Shown: one piece after another, positions 1 through 16,963 of the stretch
How the letters are laid out: the number at the start of each line of letters is the position of its first letter
How positions within the stretch are numbered: position 1 is the first letter of the stretch
Origin: a virus
Virus record (IMG/VR): IMGVR_UViG_3300031669_000176
Coordinates: 1 to 29,339 of that record
Direction: 5' to 3' (one strand)
DNA length: 29,339 nucleotides
Notes under the pieces: generated by a model
Told to the model about the DNA's origin: nothing
The model's input: the letters and a program-made list of their open reading frames with translations, nothing else
Database searches by the model: none
Program-made: the position numbers and the translations under genes

Positions 1-1439
1 GTCGGCACGTCAGCGGAGGCGATAGCCCGATATGTTGGCGCACCAGCGGCACCGTTGGGCGATGCCAGGAAGAGGTTAGCCGTCTGTGAGGCGCGTACCG
101 CAGTCAATGTGCCTGAGGTTGTGACGGGCGAGCTGGAAATGGTGAAATCGGCAGGGAGCGATAGGCCGACACTGGTAACGGTGCCCGATCCCGTACCCGC
201 CTGCGCAACCAGATTCCAATAGGTCGCATTCGGCGGGGCATTGTTCGTGTTGCCGAGGATGCAGATATAGGACGATCCGGCATCGCTCACGGTATCATTG
301 ATGATGTAGGCGGTCGCGCTACTCCATGCGCCCTTCCATTGATCCCAGCCGGGGCCGGTTGGTCCTGTTGCGCCCGTGGGTCCAGTTGCCCCTGTTGGCC
401 CGGTTGATCCAGTCGCGCCAGTCGGCCCGGTCGCTCCCGTAGCCCCTGTCTGCAAAACGAGATTGAGCGTCTGAGCCGGGGCCGTGCCGGTAATCGTCGC
501 GGCCGCTGGGCCAGCCGTTACCGTGCCGATAGATAGCGAGTTAGCCGGCCCCGTCGCGCCCGTTGGGCCTGTTGCTCCGGTAGGCCCGGTAGCACCCGTT
601 GCGCCGGTCAAGCCGGTCAATCCCGTCAGGCCGATATTCCAGCTTGCGAACGTGCCCGATCCCGTTACCGAGGTCACATTGACCGTCAGCGATGTCCCGG
701 AATAAGCGGTAATCTGCCCGACCATCATGTTAGACGGACTGGCCGAACTGGCGATGTCAAGCTCTTGGCCGACTACCCATGCGATGTTGGCTTGCGTGAC
801 GAACGTCTGACTGCCCGTCCCGATAGCGATGCTCGTCAGGCTCGTGCCGGTGATCGTCGGAGGCGGTCCCTGAAGGCGGGAATTGAAGTTACGCAAGTCC
901 GTGATGTTGGCATTTGTGATGCTGGTCACACTCGCCTGGACATGGACCTGGGCGAGTATCAGCGTGCCCTGAGGAATGGTCGGAAGGGTCGGCGTGCTGG
1001 CGTTGAGTACCGCGGTCCCTGCGGCGATACCGAGTGCTGGCCCAGCGACCCCGACATAGGCATAGACGGCATCGTAGCGATGGTATCCGGTGCCCGGAGC
1101 AGTCGTGACCGTTAGATTCGCGTCAGTGATGATCGAGACGTTTTCGTCGGCCATCAGGAACAGGCCGGCATACACAGCAGCAGCGTTTCCATACTGCTCG
1201 ATGCGGGCCGGATTCGGATCGACGCGGGACGGGTTCAGGTGCCCCGAGTCCCCCGAGGCAGCCCCCTGGATCGAGAGCGTCATGCCAGTCCCAGCGCCCT
1301 GCTGGATCATGCACCCATAGATGCAATTCTGGCCGGCCAAGAGGTATATCTTTCCGTTGTCGCTTGCCCCTTGGATGGCAGCGGCCAGATTCGCTATCTG
1401 GTTTCCCTGCGCGACAATCTGATCTACGATAGTTGCCAT
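1..1439 (-). CDS. Collagen-like tail fibre protein, C-terminus cut by window edge
   Basis: An open reading frame starts at the ATG at 1439 (AAGGA just upstream) and stays open to base 1, giving about 479 residues without a stop. Two collagen-like Gly-X-Thr/Pro blocks are visible, roughly residues 267-298 (repeats such as [12 protein letters not shown]) and 326-363 ([15 protein letters not shown]). The N-terminal part ([18 protein letters not shown]) is not collagenous and resembles an attachment domain. The segment after the second block has phrases common in phage fibre and carbohydrate-binding regions. Such repeats form trimeric shafts in phage fibres. It lies at the distal end of the tail operon behind an SGNH hydrolase, which fits a receptor-binding role. 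The receptor-binding tip is outside the window. Confidence 0.85.
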
Positions 1440-3567: not shown

Positions 3568-4982
3568 GAGTACGCCCCCCCGAATGCCAGCGGCACAATG
3601 TCAGACCGAATGATCTTGCCGAGAACGATTTTATAGGTCGCGCAATTCAGTGAGACCGACCATCCTGCAGGGATGTTGATATTGACCTCAGCCTGTCCCG
3701 TCCATGTTCCGTCCGCGGCTTTTGAAAATGCCAGGGAAGGAATGGGTACGATCACGGTGCCTGCGCCTGGTGCAGGGTAGTAATGCATAGGAAGCCCTGC
3801 GGCGCTCATTGGTACGGTCCCCTCAAGGCCTCGGACGCATCCTGTGATATGGAAGTGCCCGTAAATATCTTGAGTGACGCCGGCCCAGCTCAAGACCTCG
3901 TAATTTGAACCAGAAACCAGACAGCCGAGACGATAGCTTTCGCCCGGGACTCCGTAGGTATCCGAGCCGTCAATTCCTCTATCGTCATACCACGGGATTT
4001 CTACCCAATTGAGCGTTTCCCCAGCCGTAGGCGTTAGATCAAAGGGGGGATTGAACAGGAATGAAGTCGCTGTAACTCCTGTCGCTTTCCGCCATTGCGA
4101 AGTCCCGAACTGCGCCCAATACATACTTACTGTGGGAAGGCTCGTATCATTCGGCTGATACTGCGACGTGTTGATGATCTCACCCGCAGTAGAACCTGCC
4201 AGGATAGGAATGGTTCCTGAAGCCTCAATCGTCACCGAATCAATCGTTAGATCAGCTCCGCTATCGGTCAGGATCGACACCTGATTAGGCATGTTCGTCA
4301 GCGAGTACATCACCGCGAGACCATCCGGTAATGATTCCATCGGTTGGGCGAATCCAGTCGTTACTCTAATCTTGGTAACGATCCCCGTACTATCTATGGC
4401 CGCGAACAACACAGGATTCATTGGGTCGATCAAATATTGCCCAATGGGAGGCCATGTCAGTCCGTCGCTTATCGCGCTATGAGTCGATGTCTCTGATGCA
4501 TTACTGACCGTGAAAACTGCGAAATACTGTTCGCCGGCCGGAGAGGGCGGCGGATTTAGAACCTCAATATCGATAAATGAATTGGGCGTGTAAGGTGTCC
4601 CGCTGAGACTTCCGACACTCCCGTAATGAATCCATCCGTTTGGATCAATCTCCGTTAATTGCTGGGCGACTTGGTAATACAAGTCAATCTTAGTGATCGG
4701 AATCGAGCTATTCGGGATCGGGCACCGAACGCGAAACTTCGGAATTACCGCACCAGGAGACAAGGCCACAAACGATGCTTTATCCAATCCAGGAAACGTA
4801 ACAACAGCCGATCCTGTCGCAGAGGGAATTGCTGAAGGCGTGCCCGTACTGGTGCTAGTCGTCGCCGTGGCGACAGTTGAGGCGACCCCCAAAGACAATA
4901 GGAATTGATGCCATGCCTCTGTCGGCATCCCTGTTTTTTGATCAAGAAACGGAGTTACCGGATATTTAGCTGGGAAGGCCAT
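3564..4982 (-). CDS. Phage tail/structural protein, function unassigned
   Basis: I take the ATG at 4982 (MAFPAKYPVTPFLD), which overlaps the stop of the gp10-like gene as TGATG, giving 472 residues. A longer in-frame start at 5030 would lie inside the upstream gene. Residues 11-30 (FLDQKTGMPTEAWHQFLLSL) resemble the N-terminal segment often seen in phage tail proteins that pair with J-like or fibre proteins. The rest is beta-rich with immunoglobulin-like spacing and no catalytic motif. The gene is translationally coupled on both sides, between gp10-like and fibre genes. A role in joining fibres to the tail hub is an inference. Confidence 0.6.
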   Translation of the reverse strand: MAFPAKYPVTPFLDQKTGMPTEAWHQFLLSLGVASTVATATTSTSTGTPSAIPSATGSAVVTFPGLDKASFVALSPGAVIPKFRVRCPIPNSSIPITKIDLYYQVAQQLTEIDPNGWIHYGSVGSLSGTPYTPNSFIDIEVLNPPPSPAGEQYFAVFTVSNASETSTHSAISDGLTWPPIGQYLIDPMNPVLFAAIDSTGIVTKIRVTTGFAQPMESLPDGLAVMYSLTNMPNQVSILTDSGADLTIDSVTIEASGTIPILAGSTAGEIINTSQYQPNDTSLPTVSMYWAQFGTSQWRKATGVTATSFLFNPPFDLTPTAGETLNWVEIPWYDDRGIDGSDTYGVPGESYRLGCLVSGSNYEVLSWAGVTQDIYGHFHITGCVRGLEGTVPMSAAGLPMHYYPAPGAGTVIVPIPSLAFSKAADGTWTGQAEVNINIPAGWSVSLNCATYKIVLGKIIRSDIVPLAFGGAYS

Positions 4983-6445
4983 CAGTTTGCCGCCGCGGTC
5001 GCTTTGAGGTTTGCGGAAATAATCGAGCAATTCACAGGATCGGAAACGGTGACTTCAAAGATGCGATCCCGAGCCGATCCAAGCCGGCGCCAGATAGCGC
5101 GATTCTTAAACTGCCCCTGAGCGCCTAGCGTTACCCAATGCTCGCTAGACCACGTAGAGCCGCCATCATCTGACCAGCGCAGCATCGCTTGAGGGTTAGA
5201 GCCTTGGCCCGTGCTTAACCCTACTCCCGGTTCAAATTGAATCTGTAGCTCACTAAAGTATTGACGCTGAAAGTCTGTCGTTAAGTGGGGGGCTCTGCGG
5301 ACTCGACGTACGGGAGTGCCAGCATCCGTCTCCGCCGTCTGGGATAGAGAGTAAATCTTGCCGTTCTCATAATCCCCGATGATGATCTGGCTATTCATCA
5401 CCGCACAGCAATTTCCACGATGGCGCGTGAATCCCTTCGCGGCGTCCCAATAAAGCCACTTGTGCCATAAGCCAGTGGCGGCATCGAAGACCCATGTCAG
5501 ATTGATTGAGGGGACGGTCAGAACGTAGAATTCATGACCCTCTAATTGGTAGGTGAATGCGGACGCATCGCTAATAGAAACGCCGACCATGCTATTTTCA
5601 ATGGCATGCGTTGAAATACGCTCCATGCTATAGCCGTTCATCACACAGACGATCGCTTGTCCTCTCGTATCTTTCGATAGGAGCGCGAACGAATTGCCTA
5701 ACCTGGAAATAGAGCGAACGGCCGCGCAACCGTGCTGCATGCTCGATCCTGGGATAATCTCAAATGGAAAGGGGAAGGCTCCTACATCTACCCACACTTC
5801 GGAGGTGAATTCACCCAATAGATAAACCTGCCGATGATTGACAATCAATCCGACAAGGTTATCTGACGACCCAAACTTCGACGCGAAACTGAGTGCCTGG
5901 GTGGTTGTTGATAACGCATCAGTCGCGGCCCACTGTTGACTATTGGGTCGCGCATAGGCGAGGAAATTATCCACCACGTCGACACATGATCCCCCGACGA
6001 ATGCACCATCGGAATAAGGGATCATCGTTAGAGTATTCGTTGCCAGATCCACCGAATAACGGGAATTGACATCAACGATCATCGCAGATAGTACGTTGTC
6101 TGAAATCCCGCAATAGCCGGAGTTTGAAAGCAGTTCTCCGATATAGGTCGCGTTGAACCCTGAATTGATCAGATAGACGCTTGAACCGCAGACCGTAAGA
6201 ATCGCTGTCGATCCCGGAAGCGTATGCATGGCACGGATGGGGCCGACATTCGGCAGTTGAATCTCTGTCACTAATCCCGGAGTGGGATACAGTGCAATCA
6301 TTCCCCGTTGCTGTGGCATGCCCATCTGTGGCATGCCGGGGTTTTTCATGGGGTCAACTTCTGGATAGTAGTTGATGCACTCTTGGTCGGACTGATAAAT
6401 ACTGGGTGCGGTATAAGCGGCCCCGACGAATTTGAAGTCAGCCAT
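4982..6445 (-). CDS. P22 gp10-like tail hub / packaged-DNA stabilisation protein
   Basis: The 487-residue protein begins ADFKFVGAAYTAPSIYQSDQ and continues ECINYYPEVDP. This matches the N-terminal signature (Yt.pS..Q.ciN.YpE) of the P22 gp10 packaged-DNA stabilisation family, whose P22 member is about 472 residues. The later beta-propeller-like repeats (for example WVFDAATGLWHKW) fit the family. In P22 this protein plugs the portal vertex after packaging and joins gp4 to the distal tail. Here it directly follows the gp4-like gene, the same order of function as in P22. Confidence 0.8.
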   Translation of the reverse strand: MADFKFVGAAYTAPSIYQSDQECINYYPEVDPMKNPGMPQMGMPQQRGMIALYPTPGLVTEIQLPNVGPIRAMHTLPGSTAILTVCGSSVYLINSGFNATYIGELLSNSGYCGISDNVLSAMIVDVNSRYSVDLATNTLTMIPYSDGAFVGGSCVDVVDNFLAYARPNSQQWAATDALSTTTQALSFASKFGSSDNLVGLIVNHRQVYLLGEFTSEVWVDVGAFPFPFEIIPGSSMQHGCAAVRSISRLGNSFALLSKDTRGQAIVCVMNGYSMERISTHAIENSMVGVSISDASAFTYQLEGHEFYVLTVPSINLTWVFDAATGLWHKWLYWDAAKGFTRHRGNCCAVMNSQIIIGDYENGKIYSLSQTAETDAGTPVRRVRRAPHLTTDFQRQYFSELQIQFEPGVGLSTGQGSNPQAMLRWSDDGGSTWSSEHWVTLGAQGQFKNRAIWRRLGSARDRIFEVTVSDPVNCSIISANLKATAAAN

Positions 6446-8838: not shown

Positions 8839-8982
8839 ATGGAAACGTTTAGCACGTGGCTGATAATCAGTTGGCTTTTGAAGAAGTGGGACGACAAGAG
8901 GATTCGTTGGTATAAACCAAAGAACCCGACTCGATTACCTGGGGAAGTCAGAAATCTTGATACCCGCCCCTGGCTTAAGTGA
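8839..8982 (+). CDS. Possible small plus-strand protein, 47 aa
   Basis: This frame fills the only gap of about 100 bases in the ejection region. It starts at ATG 8839 with GGAG seven bases upstream and ends inside the antisense 3' end of the 851-residue gene. The product begins with a short Trp/Ile-rich hydrophobic stretch (TWLIISWLL) followed by basic residues (KKWDDKRIRWYKPK). I see no clear plus-strand promoter, and the upstream GGAG belongs to the terminator stem, so this may be chance. Function unknown. Confidence 0.2.
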   Translation: METFSTWLIISWLLKKWDDKRIRWYKPKNPTRLPGEVRNLDTRPWLK

Positions 8983-11490
8983 CCGATTCAACATCTTTGA
9001 GGTTGAGCGATTTTCCAGCCCTCTACGAATCAAAGAGCCGACGGGCACTCCTCCTGCCTTCACATTTAAAGCCCCCTCTGCTGCCGACTTTGCGAAATCC
9101 ATCGCATGAGCCGCAACCGTCGTATTCGAGTTATTCACGAATGACCCTCTGGGCTGCTCTTGGGTATAGCGCGCAACATTCCCGAGCGTTTGCACAGTTT
9201 TGGCTGTAGTGGGATCGAATACAAGGGGGGTCTTCTGGTCCAAACCTGTGATCGCTTTGTTGAGCGCAGCTTGACTGACGTTTCCTGCACCAGTTCTCGT
9301 ATCAAGCCCTGATGCAGAACGGAGATGATCCACTACACCTGCTCCGATAATTTGGCGAGCCATCGGGTCCGGGGATAAATTGCTCACCATGTTCCCGACG
9401 TTCGCAGTTTTCCCGTTGATGACATACTTTCTGATAAATTGATCCGCTACCGGAGAAGGTTCGCCAATCGGCACGCCATCATTCACGGCCGCCTTATAGG
9501 CTGGATCAGTTGCCAATTTATCAAAACGGGCTTTAGCGGCAATCCGAGCTGCATCCGCCAGCGGTTTAAGTGCAGCAGTCCCTTCCGACATCGGGAGGGA
9601 TTCGAGGGTATTCCGCACAACACCAATTGCATGCGATGCGTTCCCGTCCGTCGCAGCTCTTTGTGCCTGACCAAGTACAGTACGCAGCGTCTCGAATTTA
9701 TTAAACGTCAGCGCGTTTTCTCCGTCACGGTATGAAGCCAGTAAGTTCTTTACTTCCGCTGGTAGGAAGTATCCGCTGTCATCGGCCGCCAACGCGGTAT
9801 CTGCCGCCGAAACAAAGTCCTTCCCGCTTAGCGGCATATCGCCACCGTTCGCATCAGCTAGCGCTTGGTATTTGTTGGTGATGTCTTGGCGGATGGGGGA
9901 GTCAACCTTTTTGTATGAATCCACCAGCGCCTGGTCGTTGGCTACGCCGGTCGTAGCGACATCAGGCGCGACCTTATCTCGAATCGCGCTAAGGTTTTGA
10001 GCAATAGCATTTCCTTGCTGGTTAAATCGCGTGGCGAGTGCAGGAAATTTTCCCCTGTTGTTTTGCTCCAGAGAAATCAGGCGGGGGTCTCCGGTAGCCT
10101 GGCCTGCCGTAAGCTCAACTGGGACGGGCAAAGACGCAGCCTCGGCATGCCGACCAACAGCCGTTGTATTTGCCCCGCGGCCCGCTTGTTTTGCCATTTG
10201 TTGAATGACATTTTCAGATTCCGTAGGACTGGCAGCGGCGGTTGATGATGGCGGTGTGGAATTGGATCCGCTAGGGGTTGCCGCTTGCGCTGCACTTGCT
10301 TGCTGCTGCACTTCTGGTACCGGTTGGCCCTTGCGCATATACGCCGGCAAATCAGGTGTAGTCGGAACAAAATTCTGTGCCTGTTGTTCAACCTGAACCG
10401 GGCGCAGCGCATCGAGCGATGAAGTCACAGGGGATGCAGACTTCAGCGCAGCCCTCGCTTCCGCTGCTTTTCCCCCCTTACCGCCGAGCAACATGCTACC
10501 GAGGTTCAAAACAGCGCCAGTCCCGGCCCCAATTGCTGCAGCCGTACCGGGAGATGCCCCCTCTTTAAGTGCGAGTTGATTGGCAACATCGCCGCCTTTA
10601 TTGGCAATCTCGCCAGGGTAGTTCATGGGATTGTAGGGGCTATCCAATAGGGCTACGGCAGTCCCTGAGCCTTTCCCTGGCTCACCTTGGTAGGTGTGGG
10701 CTTGCTCGTATTGCGTGACTGCCTGGGCGGCATCCGCACTTGATCCCCCTGTGGCGAGTTTTGCCAGGCCTTGATAGCCGCCGATGATGCTTGAGCCGAT
10801 CCCGGTTAGGAGATGTGCAGCACCTCCTGCTATCCCACTCCGAACATCATCAAGATTTGCGGGAACATTTCCGATGCCAGCGGCTGCCGTCTCTGGGGAT
10901 ACAGGGGGCGGTGATAGTGCCTTGTTCCCTCCGGCATTGAATTGATTCACCGCAGACAATAAAGACCCTGCGTTGAACGCATTAGGATCATTAGCGGGCG
11001 TCGTGTCTTGCGAGGGCGCATTCACACCGTTCATCACCTTGCCGACATATGCGGCCGGGTCTTGATTCTTGAACCCGCCGTATTCCGCAACGGCCTTTAT
11101 CAAATCCCCACCATTGGCCTGGGCGAGATGTTGCAGATAAAAATCTGCCGCTGCCCGCGCTTGACCTGGGTTGAATGGATCGAACTTCACTCCCTGCTTA
11201 TTCAACATCGCAACCGTCGAGGGCAGGAACTGATAAGCCCCCATCGCGCCAGTCTTCGGATTCACGGCGTGCGGATCTCCACTGCTCTCGGTCTGTTGGA
11301 GATTATCGAGCAGTTTGGGAGGGGTTCCGTATGCGGCATTAGGATCGAATACGGGGGCTACGGTCGGCGCAGACGAAGCATTCCCTTTGATGAGCACATT
11401 CATCACGCCATTATCAGTAGGCGTAGTAGGCGCGGACGGCGCAGGGCTACTCCCAACCGCCGAATTGATCGTGCTCAGGAAGTCACTCAT
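8935..11490 (-). CDS. Ejection protein with lytic transglycosylase (SLT) domain
   Basis: The 851-residue protein has a lytic transglycosylase fold at about residues 58-140. The catalytic Glu is in LQQTESSGD (about residue 68), followed by GAMGAYQF (81-88) and AVAEYGGF in place of the usual AYNxG. The long remainder is Ala/Gly-rich and helical, with a hydrophobic glycine-rich stretch near 215-245 and again near 315-345. Such proteins are stored in the capsid, ejected with the DNA, and locally open peptidoglycan. Its start overlaps the stop of the previous ejection gene (TAATG). This position matches P22 gp16, although P22 gp16 lacks an obvious SLT domain. Confidence 0.8.
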   Translation of the reverse strand: MSDFLSTINSAVGSSPAPSAPTTPTDNGVMNVLIKGNASSAPTVAPVFDPNAAYGTPPKLLDNLQQTESSGDPHAVNPKTGAMGAYQFLPSTVAMLNKQGVKFDPFNPGQARAAADFYLQHLAQANGGDLIKAVAEYGGFKNQDPAAYVGKVMNGVNAPSQDTTPANDPNAFNAGSLLSAVNQFNAGGNKALSPPPVSPETAAAGIGNVPANLDDVRSGIAGGAAHLLTGIGSSIIGGYQGLAKLATGGSSADAAQAVTQYEQAHTYQGEPGKGSGTAVALLDSPYNPMNYPGEIANKGGDVANQLALKEGASPGTAAAIGAGTGAVLNLGSMLLGGKGGKAAEARAALKSASPVTSSLDALRPVQVEQQAQNFVPTTPDLPAYMRKGQPVPEVQQQASAAQAATPSGSNSTPPSSTAAASPTESENVIQQMAKQAGRGANTTAVGRHAEAASLPVPVELTAGQATGDPRLISLEQNNRGKFPALATRFNQQGNAIAQNLSAIRDKVAPDVATTGVANDQALVDSYKKVDSPIRQDITNKYQALADANGGDMPLSGKDFVSAADTALAADDSGYFLPAEVKNLLASYRDGENALTFNKFETLRTVLGQAQRAATDGNASHAIGVVRNTLESLPMSEGTAALKPLADAARIAAKARFDKLATDPAYKAAVNDGVPIGEPSPVADQFIRKYVINGKTANVGNMVSNLSPDPMARQIIGAGVVDHLRSASGLDTRTGAGNVSQAALNKAITGLDQKTPLVFDPTTAKTVQTLGNVARYTQEQPRGSFVNNSNTTVAAHAMDFAKSAAEGALNVKAGGVPVGSLIRRGLENRSTSKMLNRSLKPGAGIKISDFPR

Positions 11491-12944
11491 TACAGGTGGC
11501 CTTGTTGCGCGAGCTTTTCAATGTTTGCCGCCTTCTGAAGCATCGCTTTGAATTGTGGTGCAGACGTATTGACAGAATTTGTCTTCGGATTCCATGCCTT
11601 CAGCGATTGAGCGACTTCCTTAATCTCTTCGGGATCGTTGTTCTTCCCGGCGTTATAGAGGCGCATCGCGTTGGGATCGTAGTTCTGGGACCATTGATTT
11701 TTGAAGGCCCGAATTGCCGGAATGCCGCCTGCCTTCACTGCTGCTTCTTGTCCTTGGTTGTAGAACTGAAGGCCGCTCACGCCGGCATCATTCACAGCAA
11801 CCGCAGTCCGCAAGGATGCGGGCGTTTGTTTGATCGATCCCATTGCCGTCGCAGACGTGATCCGGCCGGCATCTGTGCTGACTCCCATCGCTTTTTCATT
11901 CGACTGCGTTTGCAGAGCGAGGAAATGCGAAATTTTGTTCGCGTCTGTAGCAAAATCGCCCCTAAGAGGAACGCCGATAGCTCCAGATAAGTTAGCCAAT
12001 GTTTGAGCATTTGGGCCGGTAGGACTCAGCCAATTGCCTTTAGTTGAGTCCAAAATGTCGATAACTTGACGATTGTTGTAATGCTCGTCGGGAACCTGGG
12101 CGGCCGCCTGATTGACGGCGTTTCGATTTTGCTGGAGCGCAGCGTAGGATTGCTGCGTTTCCGTAGGAGGAATAACCTGCGGAGGAACTGGGGCGGAAGC
12201 ACCTTGTACTGGCGCACCAGCAACGCTAACTACGGCACCATTGGCGTCCTTGGTGGTCACAATAGGATTACCACGTGCATCAGTTCCGGCAGTCTGCACC
12301 TGATCCGGGCCAAGCGTCAGCGGCGTAGCCGGACCCTGAACAGTTCCAGGCGCAGCGGCAGCCAGTGCTGGATTCCCTTGCGCGAGCGGAGCGACTGCAC
12401 CGCCCGTGCTCACCATTGCAGCATTCGGGTACATGGCATCAAGTTGTTTCGATGCCGCCTGGGTCCGCAATAACCCCTGAGTGATAAACGCGTGGAGCAC
12501 CTTCGGATCATCAGAGGGCGGCATCCCTGCCAAGGCTTGAGCGATCGCGCTAGGTGGTGCACCGGCATTCGTCAATGTACCGGCCAGGGAGCTAGCGATC
12601 TTTGCGCGGGTAATGTTTGGGTCTTGGAGCAGGTCGGTTGCCATTTGGGCAGCATTGGAGAGATGCGCCCGCATGTTTGCCAGTTGTTCGGTATTTGCTT
12701 GGGCTGCTGCCCCTGTCGCAGCAGATCCGGCTTGGCTGATTCTTGGCTGCTGCGTCTGAGTAGCGACATTGGCATTCGCTGTCGCACCTTGAGCATTCGC
12801 CTGTGCGGCCTGGACATCATAGGGAAGCGTCTGCTGCGCCCGCTGAAGCGCAACTTGCTGATTTCCGATGTTCAGCATGTTCCCGATGGTGGTCATCGCA
12901 TTGGGAACCTGCGCGCTCAGGCTGATAGAGGGATCGATGGGCAT
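11490..12944 (-). CDS. Putative DNA ejection (injection) protein, 484 aa
   Basis: The protein is Ala/Gln/Asn-rich and mainly helical (QVALQRAQQTLPYDVQAAQA, then repeated ANAQ/ATQTQQ segments), with no catalytic motif. It sits between the gp7-like protein and the transglycosylase ejection protein and is coupled to the latter by a TAATG overlap. Composition and order match the second ejection protein of P22-like phages (gp20 position), which helps form the trans-envelope channel. The assignment rests on context more than on a specific motif. Confidence 0.6.
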   Translation of the reverse strand: MPIDPSISLSAQVPNAMTTIGNMLNIGNQQVALQRAQQTLPYDVQAAQANAQGATANANVATQTQQPRISQAGSAATGAAAQANTEQLANMRAHLSNAAQMATDLLQDPNITRAKIASSLAGTLTNAGAPPSAIAQALAGMPPSDDPKVLHAFITQGLLRTQAASKQLDAMYPNAAMVSTGGAVAPLAQGNPALAAAAPGTVQGPATPLTLGPDQVQTAGTDARGNPIVTTKDANGAVVSVAGAPVQGASAPVPPQVIPPTETQQSYAALQQNRNAVNQAAAQVPDEHYNNRQVIDILDSTKGNWLSPTGPNAQTLANLSGAIGVPLRGDFATDANKISHFLALQTQSNEKAMGVSTDAGRITSATAMGSIKQTPASLRTAVAVNDAGVSGLQFYNQGQEAAVKAGGIPAIRAFKNQWSQNYDPNAMRLYNAGKNNDPEEIKEVAQSLKAWNPKTNSVNTSAPQFKAMLQKAANIEKLAQQGHL

Positions 12945-12950
12945 AATCAG

Positions 12951-13703
12951 TTACCCTTGATATGCGGTGTCAAGACTGGTGACGGGTGCGGCCTGTTGTT
13001 GAGCCGGCACCCCCATACTGGAATTTGGATTCAACGAACTCAGATAATTCCAGCCAAGCGCATTCTGTCCGCCAGCGTTCAGTGCATTGGCAGATCCAAC
13101 CGTCCCAGCAGCCTGAGCCGCCGCGCCGGAAGTGAGATAGTTGCTCGAAGCGTTTACCGCGTTCTGCCCGGCATTAGCAGTCGATTGATTTGCCGTCTGA
13201 CCGAGACCGGCAAGATTCGACAGCCGATTGTAGATGTTCGTCTGGTTTGAGTTGTAGTTGTTGTACGCCTGCTGATAGGCGTTCTGGGCGTAGTTCTGTG
13301 CGAAGGTATTGACGCCTTGAAGGGCATTCCCGCTTACCAGACCGCCAGTAGAGTTGATCTGGTTTTTCGTCGCCCCAATGCCCTGGTTGAGCATGAAGTC
13401 GTAGTTCGGCGCGAGATTCGCGTTTAGGTCAGACGTGGTGAATTGGTGCGTCATCGAGGCCGGATCGCTCGATGGTAGAGAGGTGAGATTCGCCATCTGT
13501 CCCACGGCAGTTCCGCCGGCTTGTCGCCAGGGCGCTTGCTGTTGGTTGATGGTGTTGAATTCGCCGAGCTGCGCTTGTGAAGCGTTGTTCGCGGCGTTGG
13601 CCTGGGTGTTGGCGGCGCTTTTAGCTGCGCTTGATGCTAATGCGGCTCCACCGAGAGTGGCCGCCCCCATAAGCCATGTTCCTGCGGTTATACCAGCACT
13701 CAT
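12951..13703 (-). CDS. Putative DNA transfer/ejection protein, gp7-like
   Basis: A 250-residue protein with an N-terminal small-residue hydrophobic segment (WLMGAATLGGAALASSAAKS, residues 10-29). An Asn/Gln/Ala-rich body contains the phrase NYDFMLNQGIGATKNQI, typical of proteins annotated as phage DNA transfer proteins. It is the first of three ejection-type genes in a row. The start ATG 13703 overlaps the stop of the cupin-SET gene (ATGA), so translation is coupled. In P22 the comparable gp7 is processed and leaves the capsid with the DNA. Confidence 0.65.
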   Translation of the reverse strand: MSAGITAGTWLMGAATLGGAALASSAAKSAANTQANAANNASQAQLGEFNTINQQQAPWRQAGGTAVGQMANLTSLPSSDPASMTHQFTTSDLNANLAPNYDFMLNQGIGATKNQINSTGGLVSGNALQGVNTFAQNYAQNAYQQAYNNYNSNQTNIYNRLSNLAGLGQTANQSTANAGQNAVNASSNYLTSGAAAQAAGTVGSANALNAGGQNALGWNYLSSLNPNSSMGVPAQQQAAPVTSLDTAYQG

Positions 13704-14551
13704 TCTGTGATCCTTTCCGTTGGGGCGAAGCCTGCCCCATTAACGCTCATTGCCTGCCGGTAATCTACGCAGATTTCATCGCCAACCTTGATTTCCTTGA
13801 GGGCTACAGCCATCAACGATTTATCATCTAGACAAACATATGCAACATTCGGGCGGCAGGAATGATTGATTAACCATCCTGCGGGAGTCCTTTTATCTTT
13901 AATTCTGATCGGCACTACACAGCTACCCATTTCAATATTTAAGGTAGAGAATGCGCCGGTTCCATGGATTTTTGAGGGGCCGAAAGTAACGCTAGTGACC
14001 TCTTCCGGCATTTCAATCCTATCGCCCTTGTTTTCCACAAGGTGATTAACGACCTCTTGGGTTAGATCGTATTCATCGAGGAATTTTTGATAGTCAGCGC
14101 GGTCTGCTATTGCCAATCCGTTCTGCGTCTGGACGTTTTCGCATCCGCCCATTAACTGCGCATTGGTAGATTCCGTTATCTCGAACATCAACTTATCAAG
14201 ATCGCGCTCATCCCCGACGAGGTGATAGGTGGTCCATACGGTCGTCTCTAACGCGTACCCCACCCGCTTGGTCCCAGGCTTGGAAATGATGGTATGAGGG
14301 GCAGAAAGAGTCTTCATTCCGTCATCCGTCGAGACCATGATCGTGCCTTGTGAGATGGTGCATAGATGCTCATGCCTATGTACGGCACCGGTTAGCACAA
14401 CCCCTCCAGGGATTGTCATTTCTCGCGCATAAATTCCGCCAGCGAAATAATGCCTCACAGGGCAATGCGCTTGCGGCATCGTGTTCAGCTCATTCTCAAT
14501 AGCGTATATCTTGCCGAGTGAAACATCATTCGCGCAGATCGGTACTTCCAT
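13700..14551 (-). CDS. Cupin-SET domain fusion protein
   Basis: With the ATG at 14551 the protein has 283 residues. A TTG at 14560 is possible but is badly spaced from the AGGA. Residues 45-115 form a cupin-like beta barrel (HRHEHLCTISQGTIMVSTDD at 58-77, then PHTIISKPGTKRV). Residues 187-266 are a SET domain: GPSKIHGTGAFST, the catalytic-core signature NHSCRPNV (229-236), and GDEICVDY (257-264) with the usual Tyr. SET domains transfer methyl from S-adenosylmethionine to protein lysines. No post-SET cysteines are seen. It lies among head and ejection genes, so a virion protein could be the substrate; that is inference. Confidence 0.8.
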   Translation of the reverse strand: MEVPICANDVSLGKIYAIENELNTMPQAHCPVRHYFAGGIYAREMTIPGGVVLTGAVHRHEHLCTISQGTIMVSTDDGMKTLSAPHTIISKPGTKRVGYALETTVWTTYHLVGDERDLDKLMFEITESTNAQLMGGCENVQTQNGLAIADRADYQKFLDEYDLTQEVVNHLVENKGDRIEMPEEVTSVTFGPSKIHGTGAFSTLNIEMGSCVVPIRIKDKRTPAGWLINHSCRPNVAYVCLDDKSLMAVALKEIKVGDEICVDYRQAMSVNGAGFAPTERITE

Positions 14552-14556
14552 GTGCG

Positions 14557-14913
14557 TCAATTTCCTACCGGCGTCACATACATAATCGACGGCCCAGCGG
14601 CCGATCCGATCGCGCTAACGCAGAAGCCATTCGCCGGCACTTGAACCGTTCTCGGGACGGTCATTCCATGAGGGAGCATGAATGAATTGGGAACGGTCGG
14701 CGTACCATCTACCGGGAACGCCAGCGCAGGAGTGGCAGCCGTCGAGTTATACGGAGCAACAACAACGCAAATATCCGTCGCTCCCACATTCAGGAACTCG
14801 GCATAGTTATTTTGATCGTTCGATGAAGCCGGAACCCCGACTGCGGCGTGCTGGGCGGCTCCAACCGATAAGGCATATGTCGGCCCTGCCGGGCGAGTGA
14901 CAATCGTAGTCAT
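14557..14913 (-). CDS. Hypothetical structural protein, 118 aa
   Basis: A beta-rich Ala/Pro/Val/Thr-rich protein (NYAEFLNVGATDICVVVAPY, ending SAAGPSIMYVTPVGN) with no enzymatic motif. Its start overlaps the stop of the glycosyltransferase-like gene (ATGA) and it ends six bases before the cupin-SET start. Short beta-barrel proteins at this position in late operons are often virion components, for example decoration or head-tail joining proteins. I do not recognise a named family. Confidence 0.6.
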   Translation of the reverse strand: MTTIVTRPAGPTYALSVGAAQHAAVGVPASSNDQNNYAEFLNVGATDICVVVAPYNSTAATPALAFPVDGTPTVPNSFMLPHGMTVPRTVQVPANGFCVSAIGSAAGPSIMYVTPVGN

Positions 14914-15608
14914 AGGGTGCTCACTTTGTTAGGGTCGTTACTTCCGCCAGGCTGGCGTAGCAAGAATTCGTGAAAGTTACCGGGGAAGGCGGCGTCTTTC
15001 GAGTGGTGCGTTATGCTCAGATTTGGGATGATCCACAAATCCGCGCCGGTATCGACCCAGTTACGCGAAAACGCGTAGTCCTCGCCCCACCATGTACCCT
15101 TGTGAGCGCCGTGATTAAACAGATCGATACTCGGGGAATATCTGGGCCCGTACATCAAATCAGGATAGGCCCGCATGAATCGGTCGATGCCTTCCTTGGT
15201 GACTTTCAGGAAGCCAGCGGGCACCTTGTCCGCCTTGACACATCCATCGTCTCGAAGGAATGGGGTGCCGTTACAGTTTGAAATAACGGCCCCCATGTAC
15301 TCTTCTTCTTCCTTCTTGAATCGGTAGGTTCCTGCAACAACGTCGCCTTCGGTTTCGATCAGTGTCAATAAATCTTGTGGATTCCACGACAGATCGTAAT
15401 CAAGATAAACGATAACATCGGCTTTAGCGTCGAGCGCTTTCCTGGTCATCGTTGCCCGAGCGGCAGATATATAAGGGCATCCCACTTCCTGGACGTACCC
15501 TTCTTCCCATCCCGCCGCGGTGATCAGCGGAATGCTGGCCTCTAACGCTTCAATGTACGGAGCGGTAGGACCAGAAAGCGACGGCGTGCAGAAAACTACC
15601 TTCTTCAA
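14910..15608 (-). CDS. Glycosyltransferase-like (GT-A fold) protein
   Basis: The 232-residue protein starts KKVVFCTPSLSGPTAPYIEA. It has a DxD-type motif in VIVYLDYDLSW (about 86-96) and a later acidic motif GEDYAFSRNW (about 173-182). It then has a conserved-looking His pair (SITHHSKD), all in the order found in GT-A family-2-like transferases. The sequence EVGCPYISAARATMTRKALDA is typical of a phage-borne branch of this group. It lies inside the structural operon, coupled to the next gene. Likely acceptors are a virion protein, the host envelope or modified DNA; none can be chosen from sequence. Confidence 0.65.
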   Translation of the reverse strand: MKKVVFCTPSLSGPTAPYIEALEASIPLITAAGWEEGYVQEVGCPYISAARATMTRKALDAKADVIVYLDYDLSWNPQDLLTLIETEGDVVAGTYRFKKEEEEYMGAVISNCNGTPFLRDDGCVKADKVPAGFLKVTKEGIDRFMRAYPDLMYGPRYSPSIDLFNHGAHKGTWWGEDYAFSRNWVDTGADLWIIPNLSITHHSKDAAFPGNFHEFLLRQPGGSNDPNKVSTL

Positions 15609-16162: not shown

Positions 16163-16936
16163 TCATGCTACGTGCGCCCAAGATCGGCGCTTTCGGATGT
16201 TAGTTATCATGCCTTTGGACACCCCGAATCGTTCGGCTAGTTCGATGCCGGGTTCTGCGCTTGCTCGGATGTAACGCACTTTCTCTTCGTCCAGCTTGGA
16301 GCCTTTACCGCGCCGTGATAAGCCGCGATTGTGCCCATTGACGGACTCAACTTCCAAATGCGCCCAGGATACCTTTGCCTTCACGCTCCCAATGGTGGTA
16401 GCTGCAACACCATAATCAGCAGCAATCTGTGCATACGGCCTTGGATCGGCCAATATCTTAAGTGCATCCGCTTCGGTCAAAATGGCCTGTGGCGATAATT
16501 CACCTTTGGGAATGTTGTGACGATGCTTTGCGATTTTGTCTCGCATGTTATCGCCAGGAGTCCCTAAGAAGAGATGGTCAGGATTCACGCACCTCGGGTT
16601 ATCACACTTATGGCAGACAAGCGCTTCTTTTGGTACGTTCCGCCGATTGTGGAGGGCCCAAGAATATCTGTGGGCCCGTTGGTACGGAACCCCGTCATAT
16701 ACACCTTTGAAGATTCCATATCCATCTGAGTCTGTCGCCGCAGCCCATATCCAACAATCTTCCGTCGGTTTGAATTGCAGGTTGAATCGTTCAGGAGCCG
16801 ATAATCCAACCATGTTCCCGCTATGACTCATAGTGGAAAATGGTGAGCCGTACTTCCTATTGCGCTGGTAATGCTTATTGCACATCCCCAACGAGATTAC
16901 CGGCAAGTTACACCCTTTACATCCGCATACGTCCAT
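16163..16936 (-). CDS. Freestanding HNH homing-type endonuclease with DNA-binding C-terminus
   Basis: ATG 16936 is chosen, with GGAGG eight bases upstream; a GTG two codons earlier is less likely. The 257-residue protein has an N-terminal Cys/His cluster (CGCKGCNLPVISLGMCNKHY, residues 4-23). The HNH core spans about 60-135, with RAHRYSW, CHKCDNPRCVNPDH and LGTPGDNMRDK. Two helix-turn-helix-like repeats follow, at about 155-190 (YAQIAADYGVAATTIGSVK) and 220-250 (GIELAERFGVSKGMITNIRK). This is the make-up of phage homing endonucleases that cut a site in the intron-less or HNH-less allele. It interrupts the normal coat-to-decoration gene order and has its own promoter and terminator. Confidence 0.85.
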   Translation of the reverse strand: MDVCGCKGCNLPVISLGMCNKHYQRNRKYGSPFSTMSHSGNMVGLSAPERFNLQFKPTEDCWIWAAATDSDGYGIFKGVYDGVPYQRAHRYSWALHNRRNVPKEALVCHKCDNPRCVNPDHLFLGTPGDNMRDKIAKHRHNIPKGELSPQAILTEADALKILADPRPYAQIAADYGVAATTIGSVKAKVSWAHLEVESVNGHNRGLSRRGKGSKLDEEKVRYIRASAEPGIELAERFGVSKGMITNIRKRRSWAHVA

Positions 16937-16963
16937 TTGCACATCCTCCAGAAGTGAGACTAT

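Follow-up and report, generated by a model that had tools for sequence, protein, structure and literature searches.

The window, a linear IMG/VR virus record of 29,339 bp, carries a gene in which a predicted cupin domain is followed by a minimal SET domain (mini-SET) whose key motif residues are invariant among non-redundant homologues, and which lies directly before the gene for an ejection protein resembling P22 gp7 and T7 gp14 (Table 1). The two domains occur together in many environmental phages, and their pairing is well conserved there. The interpretation favored here, with confidence that falls somewhat short of even, is that the cupin keeps the mini-SET at the assembly of ejection proteins, where the enzyme may methylate a protein of the virion or of the ejection complex while particles are being built.

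The structural genes of the window follow the order of a P22-like podophage, with the small and large terminase, portal, scaffold, coat, cupin-SET and gp7-like genes followed by those in the gp20 and gp16 positions. The cupin-SET open reading frame extends from an ATG at 14551 to a stop at 13700-13702; an alternative in-frame TTG at 14560 is the less likely start, since it touches the stop of the upstream gene and an AGGA lies about 11 nt 5' of the ATG. The initial annotation described the gene as coupled to the ejection proteins, and its frame indeed shares 4 bp (13700-13703) with that of the downstream gene matching phrog_598 ('DNA ejection'). Pfam and PHROG searches returned no match for the 118-aa protein encoded directly upstream, and a PHROG search returned none for the 484-aa protein in the gp20 position. 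A P22-gp10-like head-closure gene (4982-6445) is found after the ejection genes here and before them in P26218 and P22. An HNH endonuclease gene (16163-16942) separates the coat gene from the other structural genes of the operon, and positions 14910-15608 of the operon encode a 232-aa protein with weak similarity to glycosyltransferase-2 (Pfam E = 0.017; phrog_1574, 6.7e-18).

Table 1. Coordinates of the cupin-SET gene, its domains and motifs, and the neighboring genes in the window.
Feature	Position	Strand	Basis or remarks
Cupin-SET gene	13700..14551	-	283 aa; phrog_34170 E=7e-57 over residues 12-269
Cupin (RmlC-like jelly-roll), residues ~12-133	14153..14518	-	AlphaFold2 pLDDT mostly ~90-98; Foldseek; phrog_12032/24280
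Helical linker, residues ~140-183	14003..14134	-	AlphaFold2 helices 140-160, 165-172
Minimal SET domain, residues ~184-271	13739..14002	-	Pfam PF00856 E=3.9e-9; Foldseek MLL1, vSET 3kma
GxG SAM-binding motif (G197, G199)	13955..13963	-	Kept in 54/54 fusions
NHSCRPN, residues 229-235	13847..13867	-	N229 and H230 54/54, N235 53/54, Cys 4/54
GDEICVDY, residues 257-264	13760..13783	-	E259 and Y264 54/54
118-aa small protein directly upstream of cupin-SET	14557..14913	-	No Pfam or PHROG match
P22 gp7-like / T7 gp14-like ejection protein	12951..13703	-	phrog_598 'DNA ejection' E=9.8e-27
484-aa protein, P22 gp20 position	11490..12944	-	Gene order alone, as in P26218 and P22
851-aa protein, P22/T7 gp16 position, lytic/endolysin-like N-terminus	8935..11490	-	phrog_2013 E=9.5e-20, phrog_342 E=2.2e-11

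The two signature motifs from which the initial annotation recognized a SET domain, NHSCRPN and GDEICVDY, were both located on the minus strand, and the encoded protein matches the Pfam SET profile well above its cut-off (37.3 bits against 22.4, E=3.9e-9), with residues 226-264 corresponding to the C-terminal part of the profile; 49 of 49 family members match Pfam SET at E<=0.01. An alignment of 54 non-redundant fusions has no exception at S193, G197, G199, F201, R221, T222, N229, H230, E259, or Y264, and a single one at each of R216, G225, N235, and D263. The GxG, NHxxxxN, and E...DY motifs, including the catalytic tyrosine (Y264), are present in the window protein and retained in 53 or 54 of the 54 fusions. 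The ratio dN/dS, calculated jointly from 64 moderately divergent pairs that are not independent of one another, is 0.054 for the cupin, 0.076 for the linker, and 0.085 for the SET domain. The SET signal is far beyond chance in view of the invariant residues and the low SET ratio, and the same two results rule out a recent decay of the domain. AlphaFold2, supplied with 49 sequences comprising the window protein and its IMG/VR homologues, produced a full-length model with a mean pLDDT of 88.6 and of about 95 in the SET core. The SET domain modeled alone has a pLDDT of 86.6 and a pTM of 0.76. When this second model was compared with the PDB by Foldseek, 50/50 among the matches listed were SET methyltransferases, with MLL1 first and vSET second, and profile and Foldseek searches together match the fold to MLL1, vSET, and SETD8. 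Judged by its motifs and general fold, the prediction retains a probable SET cofactor pocket.

When IMG/VR was scanned with the first family alignment, at least 537 relatives were found, and the 80 of these that were kept all span both cupin and SET. Fusions are also encoded by the cultured Rhodoferax phage P26218 (AKA60333.1) and Pseudoalteromonas phage PH1 and by Paraburkholderia prophages. Cupin-SET matches were further obtained from genome records under names such as Paraburkholderia and Methylophaga, many being metagenome bins with an unsure host name; in MW202744, the fusion is annotated after the PBCV-1 histone methyltransferase. The initial annotation, which regarded SET domains as mainly eukaryotic or belonging to bacterial effectors, understated their frequency, as phage contigs in the hundreds carry one, and so do many chromosomes of bacteria. 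The loci fetched contained 108 open reading frames with both domains and 84 with the cupin only, a few contigs having been fetched twice by different scans. The order is reversed to linker-SET-cupin in four loci, three of them intact (L194, L220, and L229) and one with a frame break (L212), while in Paraburkholderia ferrariae (L111) cupin and SET are separate reading frames with a 4-base overlap, and two further proteins (L114 and L115) consist of linker and SET without a cupin. The linker stretch DYxxFL.E.G precedes the SET also in SET-first (L194/L220) and SET-only (L114/L115) proteins. In the cupin tree, the clade of the window protein, which has 6 rows and a support of 98, falls among cupin-only proteins, as do the SET-cupin rows, and both are apart from the large fusion clade; this tree, poorly resolved, needs 5-6 gains or losses of SET, at least two of which are forced by well-supported branches, and in the SET tree P. 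ferrariae stands beside the SET-cupin clade. The SET domain is best read as an add-on, joined to the cupin in both orders and probably on more than one occasion, a strong sign of joint function. The cupin, a small protein of the podophage structural operon, would be the older, conserved part, which stays constant in the position ahead of the ejection genes.

The gp7-like gene directly follows in 73/86 cupin-SET loci, in all four SET-cupin loci, and in 64/78 cupin-only loci, and it shares a 4-bp overlap with the preceding gene in 47/85 cupin-SET loci, which suggests translational coupling, not physical interaction. A phrog_598 ejection gene lies downstream of one SET-cupin gene (L194), and a gp7-like gene is found one short reading frame downstream of a SET gene without cupin (L115). 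Acetyltransferase (GNAT) or T7-gp13-like genes have also been observed beside the cupin gene: the GNAT gene bbp24 adjoins the cupin gene bbp23 in BPP-1 (L092, 5489-6408), a GNAT gene is located downstream of the cupin-SET fusion in zth2-2 (L008, 9060-9548), and a T7-gp13-like gene stands directly 5' of the cupin in 10 loci (L096, L165, L166, L184, L195, L213, L218, and L019-L021). The SET domain as a one-for-one substitute for the GNAT or T7-gp13-like gene was rejected, since the fusions of L019-L021 carry both and there is no mutual exclusion.

The gp7-like protein itself was considered as the obvious lysine substrate and was likewise rejected, as no lysine column is conserved in more than 40% of the SET-carrying phages and the cupin-only relatives keep three such columns. 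These three columns hold lysine in 52-78% of cupin-only and 14-26% of SET-carrying phages, a loss that may reflect phylogeny only, and the window copy of the protein has only two lysines. The lack of a conserved lysine weighs against the gp7-like protein as the SET target, so that a different protein of the virion, or one of the host, has to be considered. An active mini-SET with a ribosomal, nucleoid, or membrane protein of the host as its substrate would act late in infection, or after injection with the ejectosome if it is packaged. The conserved active-site residues and the missing conserved lysine of the neighboring protein both speak for such a role, and since the ejection proteins of P22 and T7 pass into the host envelope (PMC8954989), delivery of an internal protein would be possible. 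However, the cupin and the structural slot with which the enzyme is associated are also found where SET is missing, and a host-directed effector would need no fixed place 5' of an ejection gene, which leaves a host substrate an unlikely explanation, albeit one deserving attention.

The mini-SET differs from canonical SET domains in two respects. It has no SET-I segment, which in other SET domains usually gives the substrate groove its shape, and only 7-9 residues stand where MLL1 has 42-44, and the spacing from GxG to NHS is 32 residues in the phage SET compared with 59-79 in the four bacterial SETs in which the pattern used found both motifs; the missing SET-I is not disqualifying by itself, because this segment varies greatly across the SET family. 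In addition, alignment with MLL1 indicates that the phage family has Ala or Ile in place of the canonical 'eYxG' tyrosine, usually an active-site residue of SET enzymes, the window protein having I215 next to the conserved R216. Both features speak for a SET fold kept without catalysis in an assembly chaperone, where it would bind SAM or serve as a structural/protein-binding module, as do the retention of the Cys of NHSC in only 4/54 fusions and the common cupin-only versions, which make SET dispensable for the core role. A purely structural role does not, however, predict that Y264 and the SAM motifs should be invariant in 54/54 fusions, and a non-catalytic module is accordingly judged improbable.

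The cupin-like domain that the initial annotation placed before the SET is recovered in the structural model, whose best PDB matches for this part are the RmlC-like cupins 3fjs (E=2.7e-6), 5fq0, and 3d82, though by sequence it remains under the Pfam threshold and 2/49 members reach Cupin_2. A motif reading of the alignments indicates that the metal-ligand set HxH...E...H is not retained, with H62 (48/54) in place of the Glu, R96 in place of the last His, and, in the window protein, Ala in place of the first His; H58 lies outside the conserved columns of the fusions. That the whole protein is a tail-fiber adhesin, as the PHROG labels on its cupin half propose (phrog_12032 'short tail fiber protein', E=1.2e-52; phrog_24280 'tail fiber adhesin'), is highly improbable, as the compact cupin of about 150 aa is devoid of fiber-like repeats and adjoins ejection genes, separate tail-fiber matches occur elsewhere in the window (3-1439), and a search for an experimental source of the PHROG label found none. 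These labels, which look like misannotation, have been carried into RefSeq phage records.

Methylation of a virion or ejection-complex protein is accordingly retained as the preferred reading. The gene would give rise to a two-domain protein, presumably late in infection, whose C-terminal mini-SET is, judging by its conserved motifs, a putative SAM-dependent protein methyltransferase, most likely with lysine as the acceptor, as is usual for the SET family. The cupin, co-translated with the ejection-protein assembly and presumably binding it, would position the enzyme there, and the mini-SET would then modify its target during assembly. The 54/54 motif residues, low dN/dS, SET fold, gp7-like linkage, and repeated domain pairing count for this reading, and the absence of SET-I, the change of the 'eYxG' tyrosine to Ala or Ile, the gp7-like protein without a conserved lysine, and the cupin without the usual metal ligands count against it. 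A bolder proposal, in which a SET-I-less enzyme mounted on a cupin adaptor modifies the ejection machinery of the phage by methylation, or reaches envelope proteins of the host by way of that machinery, is tentative and rather doubtful. If true, it would add a dedicated post-translational modification step to virion assembly or genome delivery. To our knowledge, protein lysine methylation in phage assembly and infection has been little explored, and a conserved, widespread candidate enzyme tied to an ejection operon makes the question testable in the cultured phages P26218 and PH1 and in prophages.

The domain itself is already recorded in Pfam, PHROGs, and UniProt entries named 'SET domain containing protein'. 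Searches of the openly accessible literature turned up neither a paper on a phage protein of the cupin-SET type nor virion proteomics of the cupin, and the genome paper of P26218 makes no mention of SET; the pairing in phages provisionally seems undescribed. The closest recorded relatives are phrog_34170 (function not assigned), a profile of 296 positions that matches residues 12-269 of the window protein, and A0A6J5PTS6, a 263-aa 'SET domain containing protein' of an uncultured Caudovirales phage with 50% identity over 127 columns; the reversed and split forms are not noted in these entries. BPP-1 Bbp23 and the cupin-only podophage proteins (phrog_12032) have a homologous cupin, usually encoded just 5' of the gp7-like gene, but no SET, and BPP-1 differs further in its adjacent GNAT gene bbp24 and in the position of the cupin gene between terminase and portal-region genes. 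The best PDB sequence match of the SET domain is MLL1 (KMT2A, E=1.7e-11), of the MLL/KMT2 group, in two blocks containing GxG, NHS, and E..DY, which in MLL1 are separated by 42 residues, containing SET-I, against 7 in the phage protein, or by 44 against 9 with the longer profile. Similarly, vSET of PBCV-1, an H3K27 methyltransferase (PDB 3kma/1n3j), shares the compact viral SET fold (TM 0.65/0.62; profile E=6e-7), but it is a free-standing protein of 119 aa named as a histone methyltransferase, whereas the phage SET is linked to a cupin and illustrates the extent to which a SET domain can shrink with its motifs kept.
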